Of a stretch of DNA of 64,000 nucleotides, positions 27,076-33,560 are shown piece by piece. Each line of letters opens with the position of its first letter. Positions within the stretch are counted from its first letter, which is position 1. The notes under the pieces are model-generated. The model saw nothing but the letters and a program-made list of their open reading frames with translations. It searched no databases and was not told the DNA's origin. Source of the stretch: Chloroflexus sp. Y-396-1 (GTDB lineage Bacteria > Chloroflexota > Chloroflexia > Chloroflexales > Chloroflexaceae); assembly GCF_000516515.1 (NCBI RefSeq), contig NZ_KI911784.1, positions 2,016,881 through 2,080,880 on the forward strand, read 5' to 3'. The translations under genes were made by a program, and so were the position numbers.

Positions 27076-27261
27076 CGTGAACTCCTTTTGAGTGAGGGTA
27101 TGAGATACTTTCAGTATAGCGTGAGTCTGGAGTGGGTGTCGATGCGAAATGTTGTAGCCGGTCATGCAAGCAACTGCGGGTAATGCGCTGGTAACGCTGT
27201 CTCTTTACTATATCATGTAAATGTCTAACAATCAGCTTGGTGAGACAACGAAGGAGGCTTG

Positions 27262-29895
27262 ATGAGACACATCTCTCCTACAATCGTTGCAGTGTTGTTC
27301 GCATTAGCCATTAGTACGTTGCCGTATACTTCCACTCACGCAGCTCCTAGCGTCATTGTTGTGAGTGGCAACATTAGCGTTAGTACAACTTGGACGAGTG
27401 GTAACATTTACTACGTGACCAGTGATACGACCGTTGTTGCTGGAGTTACGCTCAGGATAGAACCTGGCGTGATTGTTAAGTTTCGGTCGAATTCCGGTCT
27501 AATAATTGACGGCAAACTGGAAGCGATGGGCACAGCCAGTCAGCCGATCTACTTCACGTCATATCGTGATGATAGCGCAGGCGGCGATACCGACGGCGGT
27601 GGCAGCAGCAGCGGGGCGAAAGGCGACTGGAACTGGATACAGTTCAACGCAATCAGCGACGATGCGTCGCTCATCGAGTACGCCGTCATTCGCTACGGCG
27701 GCGGCAAGTCGTCTTTCAGTTACCGAGGCGTCTATGGCAATGTGTACCTGCGCGATGCCTCACCGACTATTCGCCACTCCACCCTGGAGCATAGTGAGGG
27801 GGCTGGGGTCTATCTTGAGTCCACGGCGGCGGGGAGTTCGGCGCCTGTCATCAGTAACAATCGGTTTAGCAACAACGCCTCCAGCATCAGCACCGATGTC
27901 ACGTCTCGCCCTACGCTTACGAACAACACATCATCTGCCAACAGTACGAACGGTTTGCTGGTCAGAGGGGGGACAATCAACAGCAACACGAACTGGGATC
28001 AACTGGATATGGTCTATCGGGTGGCCGGCGACATCACGGTAGCAAGCGGCGCAACCCTGACAGTTGCGCCAGGGATGATTATCAAGTTCAATTCTAACGT
28101 GACATTATTCGTTGACGGCAAACTGGAAGCGATGGGCACAGCCAGTCAGCCGATCTACTTCACGTCATATCGTGATGATAGCGCAGGCGGCGATACCGAC
28201 GGCGGTGGCAGCAGCAGCGGGGCGAAAGGCGACTGGAACTGGATACAGTTCAACGCAATCAGCGACGATGCGTCGCTCATCGAGTACGCCGTCATTCGCT
28301 ACGGCGGCGGCAAGTCGTCTTTCAGTTACCGAGGCGTCTATGGCAATGTGTACCTGCGCGATGCCTCACCGACTATTCGCCACTCCACCCTGGAGCATAG
28401 TGAGGGGGCTGGGGTCTATCTTGAGTCCACGGCGGCGGGGAGTTCGGCGCCTGTCATCAGTAACAATCGGTTTAGCAACAACGCCTCCAGCATCAGCACC
28501 GATGTCACGTCTCGCCCTACGCTTACGAACAACACATCATCTGCCAACAGTACGAACGGTTTGCTGGTCAGAGGGGGGACAATCAACAGCAACACGAACT
28601 GGGATCAACTGGATATGGTCTATCGGGTGGCCGGCGACATCACGGTGGCAAGCGGCGCAACTCTGACGATCGCGCCGGGGATGATTATCAAGTTCAATTC
28701 TAACGTGACATTATTTGTTGACGGCAAATTGGAAGCGATGGGCACAGCCAATCAGCCGATCTACTTCACGTCATATCGTGATGACAGCGTAGGCGGCGAC
28801 ACCAACGGCGACAGCAGCAGCGGGGCGAAAGGCGACTGGAACTGGATACAGTTCAACGCAATCAGCGACGATACGTCGCTCATCGAGCACGCCGTCATTC
28901 GCTACGGCGGCGGCAAGTCGTCTTTCAGTTACCGAGGCGTCTATGGCAATGTGTACCTGCGCGATGCCTCGCCGACTATTCGCCACTCCACCCTGGCGCA
29001 TAGTGAGGGAGCTGGGGTCTATCTTGAGTCCACGGCGGCGGGGAGTTCGGCGCCTGTCATCAGTAACAATCGGTTTAGCAACAACAACTCTAGCATCAAC
29101 ACCGATGTCACATCTCGCCCCACGCTTACGAATAACTCCTCATCTGCCAACGGTACGAACGGTTTGCTGGTCAGAGGGGGGACAATTAACAGCAACACGA
29201 ACTGGGATCAACTGGATATGGTCTATCGGGTGGCCGGCGACATCACGGTGGCAAGCGGCGCAACTCTGACGATCGCGCCGGGGATGATTATCAAGTTCAA
29301 TTCTAACGTGACATTATTTGTTGACGGCAAATTGGAAGCGATGGGCACAGCCAATCAGCCGATCTACTTCACGTCATATCGTGATGACAGCGTAGGCGGC
29401 GACACCGACGGCGGTGGCAGTAGCAGCGGGGCGAAAGGCGACTGGAACTGGATACAGTTCAATGCAATCAGCGACGATACGTCGCTCATCGAGCACGCCG
29501 TCATTCGCTACGGCGGCGGCAAGTCGTCTTTCAGTTACCGAGGCGTCTATGGCAATGTGTACCTGCGCGATGCCTCGCCGACTATTCGCCACTCCACCCT
29601 GGCGCATAGTGAGGGAGCTGGGATCTATGCCCAAAATGCAACGCCAACACTGATATGCAACGATATAATGAATAACGCTGCACTCGGTATACGTAATGCT
29701 TCACCGGACACTATCATCAGTGCTATCAACCAGTATTGGGGAGACCCTTCTGGTCCGAAACATGCTACTCTCAATCCTAATGGTCGGGGTAATGGTGTTA
29801 GTGACGGTGTAACTTTTGTTCCATGGCAAACTACGCCTTGTTGGATGCCATTATCTGGTTCATCTAGTTTGTTTATACCGCTAGTTGTACGGTGA
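27262..29895 (+). CDS. Secreted right-handed beta-helix protein with ~202-residue tandem repeats
   Basis: An 877-residue protein from the ATG at 27262 (GGAGG at 4 bp); the TTG at 27259 is less likely. A signal peptide (SPTIVAVLFALAISTLPYTS) is followed by about 3.5 copies of a 202-residue unit. Each unit contains GATLTVAPGMIIKFNSN, a TASQPIYFTSYRDD-type strand, GDWNWIQF and HSTLEHSEGAGVYLES, typical of parallel beta-helix coils. The C-terminus has YWGDPSGPKHATLNPNGRG and ends FIPLVVR. It is an extracellular or surface protein of unknown binding function. DNA repeats are 606 bp and nearly identical, so the number of copies may vary. Confidence 0.85.
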   Translation: MRHISPTIVAVLFALAISTLPYTSTHAAPSVIVVSGNISVSTTWTSGNIYYVTSDTTVVAGVTLRIEPGVIVKFRSNSGLIIDGKLEAMGTASQPIYFTSYRDDSAGGDTDGGGSSSGAKGDWNWIQFNAISDDASLIEYAVIRYGGGKSSFSYRGVYGNVYLRDASPTIRHSTLEHSEGAGVYLESTAAGSSAPVISNNRFSNNASSISTDVTSRPTLTNNTSSANSTNGLLVRGGTINSNTNWDQLDMVYRVAGDITVASGATLTVAPGMIIKFNSNVTLFVDGKLEAMGTASQPIYFTSYRDDSAGGDTDGGGSSSGAKGDWNWIQFNAISDDASLIEYAVIRYGGGKSSFSYRGVYGNVYLRDASPTIRHSTLEHSEGAGVYLESTAAGSSAPVISNNRFSNNASSISTDVTSRPTLTNNTSSANSTNGLLVRGGTINSNTNWDQLDMVYRVAGDITVASGATLTIAPGMIIKFNSNVTLFVDGKLEAMGTANQPIYFTSYRDDSVGGDTNGDSSSGAKGDWNWIQFNAISDDTSLIEHAVIRYGGGKSSFSYRGVYGNVYLRDASPTIRHSTLAHSEGAGVYLESTAAGSSAPVISNNRFSNNNSSINTDVTSRPTLTNNSSSANGTNGLLVRGGTINSNTNWDQLDMVYRVAGDITVASGATLTIAPGMIIKFNSNVTLFVDGKLEAMGTANQPIYFTSYRDDSVGGDTDGGGSSSGAKGDWNWIQFNAISDDTSLIEHAVIRYGGGKSSFSYRGVYGNVYLRDASPTIRHSTLAHSEGAGIYAQNATPTLICNDIMNNAALGIRNASPDTIISAINQYWGDPSGPKHATLNPNGRGNGVSDGVTFVPWQTTPCWMPLSGSSSLFIPLVVR
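27508..29630 (+). repeat. 606-bp in-frame tandem repeat array
   Basis: Units begin at 27508, 28114, 28720 and 29323 (last one partial). Units 1 and 2 are identical over about 540 bp, including synonymous positions. Unit 3 lost one codon (603 bp) and carries scattered changes shared with unit 4. This points to recent duplication or gene conversion. Confidence 0.9.
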
Positions 29896-30339: not shown

Positions 30340-31287
30340 ATGATCGAAGCGATTCATCTCGGTAAGCAATTCGGGGATTTTGTTGCGGTACGCGATCTGA
30401 ATCTGGTTGTGCAGCCAGGTGAGTTAGTGGCATTGCTGGGGCCAAACGGCGCCGGGAAAACGACAACGGTTCGAATGTTGGCTGCAATCTTACCGCCAGG
30501 GAGTGGTCAAGCCCGTATTTGTGGCTATGATGTCGTTCGCGATGCGCAACGGGTGCGGGGTATGGTCGGTTTATTGACCGAATATCCTGGCTTGTACGGA
30601 CGGATGGCAGCACTGGAATATCTGGCTTTCTTCGGGGCGTTGCTTGGCCTTGATGCAGTCCAGTGCCGCCAACGCAGTGAGATGCTCTTGCGCCAGTTTG
30701 GCTTGTGGGAGGTGCGTGACCGTCAGCTTGAAAGTTTTTCTAAAGGGATGCGCCAGAAGATGGCGCTGATTCGGGCAATGATCCACGATCCGCCAGTGCT
30801 CTTTCTCGACGAACCGACAACAGCGATGGATCCCCAGAGTGCGCGGACTGTGCGTGACGCAATTGGTGAGTTACGCGGTGCGAAACGGAGTATTCTGCTA
30901 ACCACGCATAATCTAAGTGAAGCAGAAGAGCTAGCTGACCGGATTGCGATCATTCGTGGCGGGCAGATTATTGCCTGTGGTTCATTTGCTGAGCTAAGCC
31001 AGCAGTTACTCGGTGATCCAATATTTGAACTTCGCCTGGTACACCCTGATGACCAGGAACGTGCGGTTGCAGTGGTACGCGATCTAGTGCATGTGCAAGT
31101 GATTGGCGCTGATCGGCTGAGTTGGCAAACTGCCGAACCTCAAGCGCTCAATCCGGCTATTCTCGAGCGATTGACGACAGCCGGGATTGGTGTGTACAGT
31201 CTGGCCGAGCAACCGCGTCGATTAGAAGACCTTTATTTGCGGATTGTAGCAGAAGATGAGGCTCCGCACGCCTCGCATTCCCGGTGA
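30340..31287 (+). CDS. ABC transporter ATP-binding protein (ABC-2 exporter type)
   Basis: A 315-residue ATPase. Walker A GPNGAGKTTT (34-43), signature SFSKGMRQKMALIRAM, Walker B VLFLDEPTTAMDP and H-loop LLTTHNLSEAEEL are intact. The C-terminal 90 residues form the extra domain seen in CcmA/NatA-like ATPases. Its stop overlaps the permease start (GTGA), so they form one exporter unit. The substrate is unknown. Confidence 0.93.
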   Translation: MIEAIHLGKQFGDFVAVRDLNLVVQPGELVALLGPNGAGKTTTVRMLAAILPPGSGQARICGYDVVRDAQRVRGMVGLLTEYPGLYGRMAALEYLAFFGALLGLDAVQCRQRSEMLLRQFGLWEVRDRQLESFSKGMRQKMALIRAMIHDPPVLFLDEPTTAMDPQSARTVRDAIGELRGAKRSILLTTHNLSEAEELADRIAIIRGGQIIACGSFAELSQQLLGDPIFELRLVHPDDQERAVAVVRDLVHVQVIGADRLSWQTAEPQALNPAILERLTTAGIGVYSLAEQPRRLEDLYLRIVAEDEAPHASHSR

Positions 31288-33560
31288 AAGTAATGAAACG
31301 ATTTTCCCTCACACGCTCGGTTATGCTCTTGCGTCCGCTCCGGCCACTCCCGGCGTGGTGGCTCATTACGCGCCGCGAATTGCGTGATACCCTGACCGAC
31401 TGGCGCTTACTGATCCCGCTCGGTCTGCTGGCGCTGGCACTCCCGTTTCTGGTTTCAGCAGCGGCCCTTGCGCTGATCCGATTTACCGAACAACTCGAAT
31501 TGGCTGTTCAGATTATTCCGTTCGCGATCTTGCTTGTCGGCTTTTTACCGGCGGGCTTTTCCCTCATTCTGGCTCTAGAGTCATTTGCCGGTGAGCGTGA
31601 GCGGAATACGCTTGAAACGCTGTTAGCAATGCCGCTGGGTGATCGTGAATTGTACCTGGCCAAGTTGATTGCAGCGCTGGCGCTTCCACTGATTGGCGCC
31701 CTGCTCAGTCAGGTGGTCTTTGGGACGATGATGCTCTTGTTTGCGCCCGATGTGGCGCTGGTTGCCTTCCACCCACTGCGTTTGCTGTTGTTGTTGGTGT
31801 TGGTGCTGACGATGGCAATGGTGATGGTGAGCGGGGCAGTGATCATTTCTTCGCATGTCACCACAGTGCGGGCTGCTAGTCTGCTCTCTAGCCTAATTTT
31901 GGTGCCGCTGGCGTTACTGGTACAGGTGATCGCCTTTCTCATCGTTGGCAATCGCTGGGACGGGGTTGTTGGTATCTGGTTGGGATTGAGTGGTCTCGTT
32001 GGTGTACTCATCCACGCGGGTATGCGGGCGTTTAGCCGCGAAGAGCTGCTGGCCCGTGAACAGATCCGCCGTCCATGGTTTAGGTGGCGGTACCGGCAAG
32101 CACGACGGCAGATAACGCACTTTAGCGGTCATCCGGTGTGGATTGTGGCTCGACGCGAAATGATTGAAATCACTCGCGACTGGCGTTCGCTAACGTTGCT
32201 CGGTTTTTTGGCAGTATTGATGCCGGTTGGCCTGAATGCAGCGATTACGGCCATCTTACCGCAGCTCGATGATCCCCTCGCACTGGCGCCACTGGTTCCG
32301 TTTGTCGGCGTACTGGCCGGCTTTGTACCAATGAGCTTTGCGCTAGTGGCTGCGCTTGAGTCGTTCGTTGGTGAACGTGAGCGTAACACGCTTGAGGCGC
32401 TCTGTGCCTTACCAATATCTGATCGACAACTCTTTTTGGGGAAACTGGTGGGAACGCTCCTGATTCCCCTGATCACTGCGCTGATAACGCAACATCTCTT
32501 CTACGCGCTAGTGGCGCTCAACGTTCCGACACTCTACGCCGATGGCATGTCACCAGCATTATTGGGTTTGATGAGTCTGTTGACGATCGCTGTGGCGGTT
32601 GGTCTGGTATCGGGCGCGGTGAGCTTTTCGATCCATGCTGGGAGTGTACGGGAAGCCTCAATGATGGCCTCGGCGGTCTTGCTCCCGACCACTGCTCTGT
32701 TGCAGGCGCAAGCGCCGTATTTTATTGCACGGCGGTTTGATGTTGTCTGGTTGGCGATACTAGCGATCGCGGTGGTAGCATTGGCCTTTTTGCGCAGTGG
32801 TATGCAAACATTTCAACGGGCAGCGATCTTTTCGCGGAACCGCGAAACGATGAGTTTACGACGGATATGGGTGACGTTTCGTCGTTTCTTCAGCGAGTAT
32901 CAGCCGGCGGGAACACCACTCTATGCCTATCGCGGACTACCATTCTCGCCGTGGCGCTTCTACCGTTATGAGTTTCCGGCCCTGCTCCACGAGTTACGTC
33001 TACCGCTGGCAGTCAGTGTGCTGGCCGCAGTGAGTGGAACCGTGTTTGGCCTTACCCTGTCACAAACGCTCGTGTTGCCACCGGTCGAACGGGCATTAAC
33101 AATGCTCGCATATGGCCCGGCGCCGTCTTTGCTCCTGGCCGGTTTTGTCTTCGCCAATAACTTGAGGGTATCAATCTTATCGAACCTGCTGGCGCCATTC
33201 AGCCTGGGTGTCTTTCCGTTTCTCGTCCCGGCAGTCGTTTTTGCGCAGATCGGTTATGTCAGCGGACGCATTCTCGCGCAGAGTGGAGCGACCATCCTCG
33301 ATCCGCTGCAATTCATGATCGCTTACTTGCTCCCGCATGGTGTGATCGAATTACCTACATTTCTGCTCAGTGCGGCGCTTGGTCTGCGGATGGGGGCTGC
33401 GCTGTTGAGCACGCCGGGCGATTTTACAGTCGGTGAGAATCTACTGTGGGCAGTAGCGCAAACGGTCAGGGTCTGGTTGCTGATCATTGCCCCGCTCGTG
33501 CTGGTAGCTGCTCTGATTGAAGGCTTGATCACACCACTGGTCATTATGTGGGTGTATTGA
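31284..33560 (+). CDS. Triple-fusion membrane protein: two ABC-2 permease modules plus a SpoIIM-like domain
   Basis: A 758-residue protein from a GTG overlapping the ATPase stop; the ATG at 31293 is an alternative. Two homologous ABC-2 halves follow each other, marked by the repeats SFAGERERNTLETLLAMP and SFVGERERNTLEALCALP. Each half has an N-terminal amphipathic RELRDT/REMIEITRDW element and about six TM segments. The third part (about 555-755) resembles SpoIIM/DUF95: FVFANNLRVSILSNLLAPFSLGVF and LLPHGVIELPTFLLSAALGLRMG. A single polypeptide could thus supply the whole membrane domain of the exporter. The 3' end overlaps the convergent DDN gene by 17 bp. Confidence 0.85.
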   Translation: MKVMKRFSLTRSVMLLRPLRPLPAWWLITRRELRDTLTDWRLLIPLGLLALALPFLVSAAALALIRFTEQLELAVQIIPFAILLVGFLPAGFSLILALESFAGERERNTLETLLAMPLGDRELYLAKLIAALALPLIGALLSQVVFGTMMLLFAPDVALVAFHPLRLLLLLVLVLTMAMVMVSGAVIISSHVTTVRAASLLSSLILVPLALLVQVIAFLIVGNRWDGVVGIWLGLSGLVGVLIHAGMRAFSREELLAREQIRRPWFRWRYRQARRQITHFSGHPVWIVARREMIEITRDWRSLTLLGFLAVLMPVGLNAAITAILPQLDDPLALAPLVPFVGVLAGFVPMSFALVAALESFVGERERNTLEALCALPISDRQLFLGKLVGTLLIPLITALITQHLFYALVALNVPTLYADGMSPALLGLMSLLTIAVAVGLVSGAVSFSIHAGSVREASMMASAVLLPTTALLQAQAPYFIARRFDVVWLAILAIAVVALAFLRSGMQTFQRAAIFSRNRETMSLRRIWVTFRRFFSEYQPAGTPLYAYRGLPFSPWRFYRYEFPALLHELRLPLAVSVLAAVSGTVFGLTLSQTLVLPPVERALTMLAYGPAPSLLLAGFVFANNLRVSILSNLLAPFSLGVFPFLVPAVVFAQIGYVSGRILAQSGATILDPLQFMIAYLLPHGVIELPTFLLSAALGLRMGAALLSTPGDFTVGENLLWAVAQTVRVWLLIIAPLVLVAALIEGLITPLVIMWVY

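Follow-up and report, generated by a model that had tools for sequence, protein, structure and literature searches.

A tandem ABC-2 permease fused to a SpoIIM domain in Chloroflexus, and its relatives across the Chloroflexota

The permease gene and its surroundings

We analysed a 64,000-nucleotide stretch of the genome of Chloroflexus sp. Y-396-1 (the window; genome searched: 4.89 Mb, single contig), in which an ABC transporter ATPase gene is followed by the gene for an unusual permease (Table 1). The initial annotation had read the permease as two homologous ABC-2 modules, each with a GERERNTLE motif, joined to a SpoIIM-like third part in one protein of 758 residues whose gene overlaps that of its ATPase. 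Profile searches bore this out, with all three parts above the Pfam cut-offs: ABC2_membrane_2 (PF12679) matched in two stretches (64.3 bits, cut-off 27.2) and SpoIIM (PF01944) matched at residues 583-751 (64.1 bits, cut-off 26.9), spanning positions 6-163 of the 163 in the model. The overlap between the two open reading frames (ORFs) is 4 bases.

Table 1. Genes and protein modules at the locus, numbered by position in the window
Feature	Position	Strand	Remarks
NlpC/P60 gene	24427-26100		
Beta-helix protein	27259-29895	+	878 aa; Pfam Beta_helix, NosD
ABC ATPase, partner of permease	30340-31287	+	Pfam ABC_tran
ABC2-ABC2-SpoIIM fusion permease	31284-33560	+	GTG start; 758 aa
First ABC-2 module, residues 21-265	31344-32078	+	Interface helix, transmembrane helices, coupling-helix region
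Second ABC-2 module, residues 276-520	32109-32843	+	
Linker and SpoIIM module, residues 521-758	32844-33557	+	Motif PHGVIE at residues 684-689

Aligned over 239 columns, the two ABC-2 modules share 39% identity and score 150 bits, against 40.4 bits for the highest-scoring of 500 shuffles of one module, and profiles built from first and second halves matched with 100% probability. GERERNTLE occurs at residues 103-111 and 363-371; in the predicted model the motif falls within the short helices that follow the second long helix in each module. Going by what is known of ABC-2 permeases, we take this region to be the coupling helix. Among tandem fusions of the same architecture, the string GERERN was found in 24 of 27 first modules and 22 of 27 second modules; it was rarer in fusions with a single ABC-2 module (10/40). 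The window ATPase has Walker A, signature, Walker B and H-loop motifs, and its best NCBIfam model was drrA (TIGR01188), at 274.1 bits, which does not reach the curated cut-off of 312.45 for membership of the DrrA subfamily.

The beta-helix protein encoded upstream has a signal-like start and long, near-identical repeats, as judged by eye. Its two flanking genes adjoin each other in all six genus-level loci, where the beta-helix gene is absent, and matches in seven other genomes of the genus were at most 43% identical, among the matches listed. On both counts we rejected it as a conserved NosD-like partner gene.

Two SpoIIM genes are present in the source genome, the window fusion and a free one of 316 aa. 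The SpoIIM family is best known from spore formation, and the source genome gave no matches to SpoIID or SpoIIP (PF07454, PF08486), both of which were detected in a B. subtilis control; these are the partners of SpoIIM in the sporulation DMP complex. The initial annotation had named MoxR and RDD genes as occasional neighbours of SpoIIM. Here the free gene adjoins amino-acid-kinase-family and UbiA prenyltransferase genes (L037, 6737-9450), a possible isoprenoid context, the rest of that stretch being judged by eye. Searches of plasmid records returned no match for the window protein; 60 records, mostly from Rhizobium, for the free SpoIIM; and seven for a single fusion (L098), none covering 80% of it, the best being an 813-base permease gene of Thermomicrobium roseum without SpoIIM annotation.

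Distribution of the fusion, its ATPase and the origin of the tandem form

Copies of the window fusion 76-78% identical to it were found in two named records, from an uncultured Chloroflexus and a Chloroflexota metagenome-assembled genome. Single ABC2-SpoIIM proteins of about 440-570 aa are present in many Chloroflexota families, and the tandem ABC2-ABC2-SpoIIM form turned up in two families, here called f1 and f2, of the order to which the window belongs. In the class, 85 of 158 genomes had a SpoIIM match. By open-frame length, read by hand, SpoIIM lay in a frame of at least 700 aa in 36 of the 41 f1 genomes of the class sample; four of the other five had shorter frames (G009, G017, G018 and G029) and one had a free gene only (G025). 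Second SpoIIM frames in families f3, f4 and f5 were about 470-600 aa long.

In the phylum, a profile of the SpoIIM module matched 179 of 400 genomes, with at least 80 rows at E 2e-47 or better (counted by hand). Those 80 listed rows comprised five free frames of family f34 and 75 fusion candidates, of which 74 had a frame of at least 440 aa. Tandem-length frames (740-869 aa) occurred in 23/23 f1 and 7/7 f2 genomes of the phylum sample, among the matches listed, although those of G005 and G006 contain a stop codon within the reported stretch. Such frame lengths are only a proxy; domain content was checked in fetched loci, themselves chosen for matching the fusion. These held 42 single fusions, 28 tandem fusions (including L006) and 21 SpoIIM-only frames, counted as distinct ORFs. 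Both domains exceeded the Pfam cut-offs in L055 and in 7/7 further fusions from seven families, while an ordinary ABC-2 permease from the same genome as one of the checked fusions (L125) showed no SpoIIM. In six loci of family f31 one ORF covers both the ABC-2 and SpoIIM matches, and five of the six had been missed by the phmmer search of the phylum. A scan of genome contigs with short peptide patterns found two fusion loci, both from Chloroflexota. A Nocardia stretch (L126) carried no annotation and was left out of the analysis. In L120 (5604-7113) and L113 (63-1524) the fusion genes are split into overlapping frames, by frame breaks or assembly errors. The fusion is common in Chloroflexota, which is one half of what the initial annotation had said would refute its reading, namely a fusion both common and already described; as to the second half, we found no earlier description of it in the literature searched, as judged by titles and the beginnings of abstracts.

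The fused type of SpoIIM can also stand without an ABC-2 module, since in family f34 (L086-L090) it is a separate gene of about 242-244 aa, related to the fused type at 53-67 bits, and a search of these loci for an ABC-2 module beside it found none. In four of the five, an ORF resembling an ABC ATPase (170-179 bits) follows the free SpoIIM at a distance of 3.2-3.9 kb downstream. A different arrangement was seen in L067 (1518-4274), where SpoIIM occupies residues 149-328 of a 918-aa ORF whose long C-terminal region matches no Pfam family at E 1e-4.

The partnership with an ATPase proposed for the window pair extends across the fusions. An ATPase gene lies upstream on the same strand, within 400 bases, in 40/42 single fusions and in 23/27 tandem fusions (the latter omitting L006, which is a truncated copy of the window fusion), and 18 of those 23 share the 4-base overlap. 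The two single-fusion exceptions are at a contig start (L062) and behind a 462-base gap holding another ORF (L091). All four tandem exceptions (G024, G026, G027 and G040) keep an ATPase elsewhere that is 67-70% identical to the window's, on a par with two relatives whose gene pair is intact (68-70%); the next-best ATPase in those four genomes was at most 45% identical, among the matches listed. In G024 and G027 the separated ATPase and the fusion share a contig, about 25 kb apart. Three loci from three genomes of one genus (g11; L041, L042 and L074) have the fusion without an adjoining ATPase and a small-GTPase-like gene, MglA-like by eye, upstream of it. As a control, an ATPase lay just upstream of 0/21 SpoIIM-only ORFs, a weak comparison, since the flanking sequence in most of these loci is only about 1.2-1.5 kb long and one of the ORFs (L120) is a fragment of a broken fusion gene.

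Neighbour clustering of 67 loci found the ATPase to be the only widely shared neighbour (57 loci, against 11 for the next largest cluster), with some ATPases missed because a longer overlapping ORF was chosen. No conserved third operon gene was found in these loci. Downstream clusters c3 (metallo-beta-lactamase superfamily by Pfam), c12 (epimerase-like by eye) and c40 (hydrolase-like by eye) were considered for this place and rejected, each being limited to a few families.

We asked how the tandem form arose from trees of the ABC-2, SpoIIM and ATPase sequences. In the ABC-2 trees, the first and second halves of f1 are sisters (support 99/93; 95/94 in a reduced set) and adjoin single modules of f4, and the f2 halves fall outside that group. 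The SpoIIM tree groups f2 modules with f3 (98/96), and the ATPase tree places f1 with f4 (89/89), apart from f2. These placements of f1 and f2 favour two independent tandem duplications, although gene conversion or losses may also have shaped the trees. Topology tests, in which the clade groups were chosen after the first ABC-2 tree was known, rejected a single clade of all second halves (p-AU 0.005) and of the tandem-associated ATPases (p = 0.023), and did not reject one of all first halves (p = 0.057). The starred branches of the ATPase tree alone do not force two origins. Two sequences fit poorly, the second half of L047, which the first ABC-2 tree separates from the remaining second halves of f2, and the SpoIIM of an f1 row (L105), which falls with f4 single forms in the SpoIIM tree; the outgroup L125 has a very long branch in the first ABC-2 tree. 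In the SpoIIM tree, all 34 fused modules fall to the same side of one branch (support 92/89), which would fit a single fusion event.

Predicted structure and known relatives

The full-length model was of middling quality (pLDDT 77.7, pTM 0.67) and shows two ABC-2-like modules, the SpoIIM part and an amphipathic helix preceding it. A Foldseek search with this model gave nothing at E 0.001 or better; NosY headed the list (E 0.04, probability 1.00), whose top rows also included a tandem mycobacterial efflux pump (PDB 8k1m, 8k1n, 8k1o and 8k1p), presumably Rv1217c-Rv1218c. VIA-align on the Foldseek rows gave Z 19.9 for NosY (220 residues, 3.0 Å, one ABC-2 module) and Z 18.1 for the pump (8k1p_A; 438 residues, 5.1 Å, model residues 21-517), with unrelated MATE transporters at Z 8.2 or lower. 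A PDB search with the tandem profile likewise gave NosY, its only match with an E value of 0.01 or less. Together with the adjacent ATPase gene, the predicted fold, with its interface and coupling helices, is that of an ABC-2 permease, and the model has the two ABC-2 modules of the mycobacterial pump in one chain and in the same arrangement. The alignment with the pump, however, is confined to model residues 21-517 and contains no counterpart of the SpoIIM part. NosY of NosDFY shares the ABC-2 fold but matches one module only, and the NosD-like partner gene is not conserved around the window permease.

The SpoIIM module alone was predicted with high confidence (pLDDT 93.8, pTM 0.90). Its profile gave no matches to PDB sequences up to E 1, its model had no significant relative among solved structures in Foldseek or VIA-align, and the idea that it is a third ABC-2 module was rejected (hhalign probability at most 2.5%). 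With neither a profile relation to the ABC-2 modules nor a significant solved relative, its role cannot be read from its fold.

Other systems share single features with the window permease. SpoIIM of the Bacillus subtilis DMP complex has the PF01944 domain in common with it, but the window domain is fused to an exporter in a genome in which SpoIID and SpoIIP were not found. NCBIfam family NF041647, by name an ABC permease/CPBP protease fusion, also joins an ABC permease to another membrane domain, but a different one, and the window permease scored 49.8 bits against it, far under the cut-off of 435. In circular-bacteriocin loci, SpoIIM, transporter and precursor genes cluster (PMC8659200); SpoIIM/DUF95 is there encoded with transporter genes but as a separate protein, whereas the window's is fused, and the part of that paper available to us gives no role for it.

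A candidate exporter with a built-in SpoIIM domain

We lean towards reading the pair as a dedicated ABC-2 exporter whose transmembrane halves are joined in one polypeptide with a built-in SpoIIM partner domain. The two ABC-2 modules would form a pseudo-dimer, with two copies of the ATPase binding their coupling helices, and the SpoIIM domain would lie next to them in the membrane, a permanent partner helping to hand over, gate or release the substrate. Single ABC2-SpoIIM relatives would act as homodimers carrying two SpoIIM domains, the tandem form carrying one. The transporter part of this reading is well supported, and the exporter membrane domain proposed by the initial annotation agrees with the structural matches to the pump and NosY. 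We infer a role for SpoIIM in substrate hand-over, gating or envelope coupling, which leaves the accessory function claimed there as an inference too. Counting against the exporter reading are the middling full-length model, the absence of a significant match in Foldseek by itself, the weak SpoIIM-only control and the free SpoIIM of f34. Export is the direction expected from what is known of the family, and our guess at the substrate would be a peptide, a lipid or an envelope precursor.

More tentatively, and with less confidence than for the exporter itself, SpoIIM could be a true subunit of ABC-2 exporters, the partners being separate proteins in other bacteria, and the two duplications could have cut the number of SpoIIM domains per transporter from two to one.

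The pair might instead be a mechanotransmission or membrane-remodelling machine, in which ATP hydrolysis would drive an action of SpoIIM on envelope synthesis or membrane shape. NosDFY is an example of mechanotransmission, and NosY is the closest solved relative of the window permease. For archaeal relatives of SpoIIM, a part in remodelling membranes or forming vesicles has been predicted (PMC5898192). Envelope genes also occur near the pair: opposite-strand mreB in 5/9 f4 loci, with mreC and a penicillin-binding-protein gene beyond, and ftsK, a CDP-alcohol phosphatidyltransferase gene and lgt ahead of the pair in 8/10 f19/f51 loci (counts from neighbour clustering, with Pfam identities for L055, L093 and L095 only). 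Such neighbourhoods are, however, limited to these lineages, whereas the ATPase alone is widely shared, and the window has no mreB- or ftsK-type envelope cluster, its NlpC/P60 gene lying about 4 kb upstream. We consider this reading unlikely. An envelope-related substrate, as the initial annotation suggested, draws on the same neighbourhoods in other families.

It is more doubtful still that SpoIIM only serves passively to anchor the protein in the membrane, as a historical leftover that plays no part in the exporter cycle. The module has diverged strongly, about half of 66 other SpoIIM rows being only 22-32% identical to the window's, as such an anchor might; but P684 and H685 are invariant across 67 modules, N626, G642, G686, E689 and E746 are at least 90% conserved, and every f1 and f2 genome of the phylum sample has SpoIIM in a tandem-length frame, among the matches listed. 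Least probable of all is that SpoIIM is a remote type I importer transmembrane domain, giving three permease-like modules in one protein: many of its top Foldseek rows were type I importer permeases, several of them again in VIA-align, but at E 1.1 or worse and TM about 0.3, and the best VIA-align score (Z 5.2) was tied with that of cytochrome bo3 chain C and near those of other unrelated helical proteins.

SpoIIM/DUF95 is widespread and its function outside spore engulfment is described as unsettled in the part of PMC5898192 available to us. The exporter reading bears on this question, as a phylum-wide fusion, nearly always encoded with one ATPase, links the SpoIIM family with ABC-2 export and suggests that an ABC exporter can include a SpoIIM protein among its components. 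The fusion and its ATPase form a directly testable system, and the duplications, which appear to be independent, provide a natural experiment on the number of SpoIIM domains that an exporter needs.
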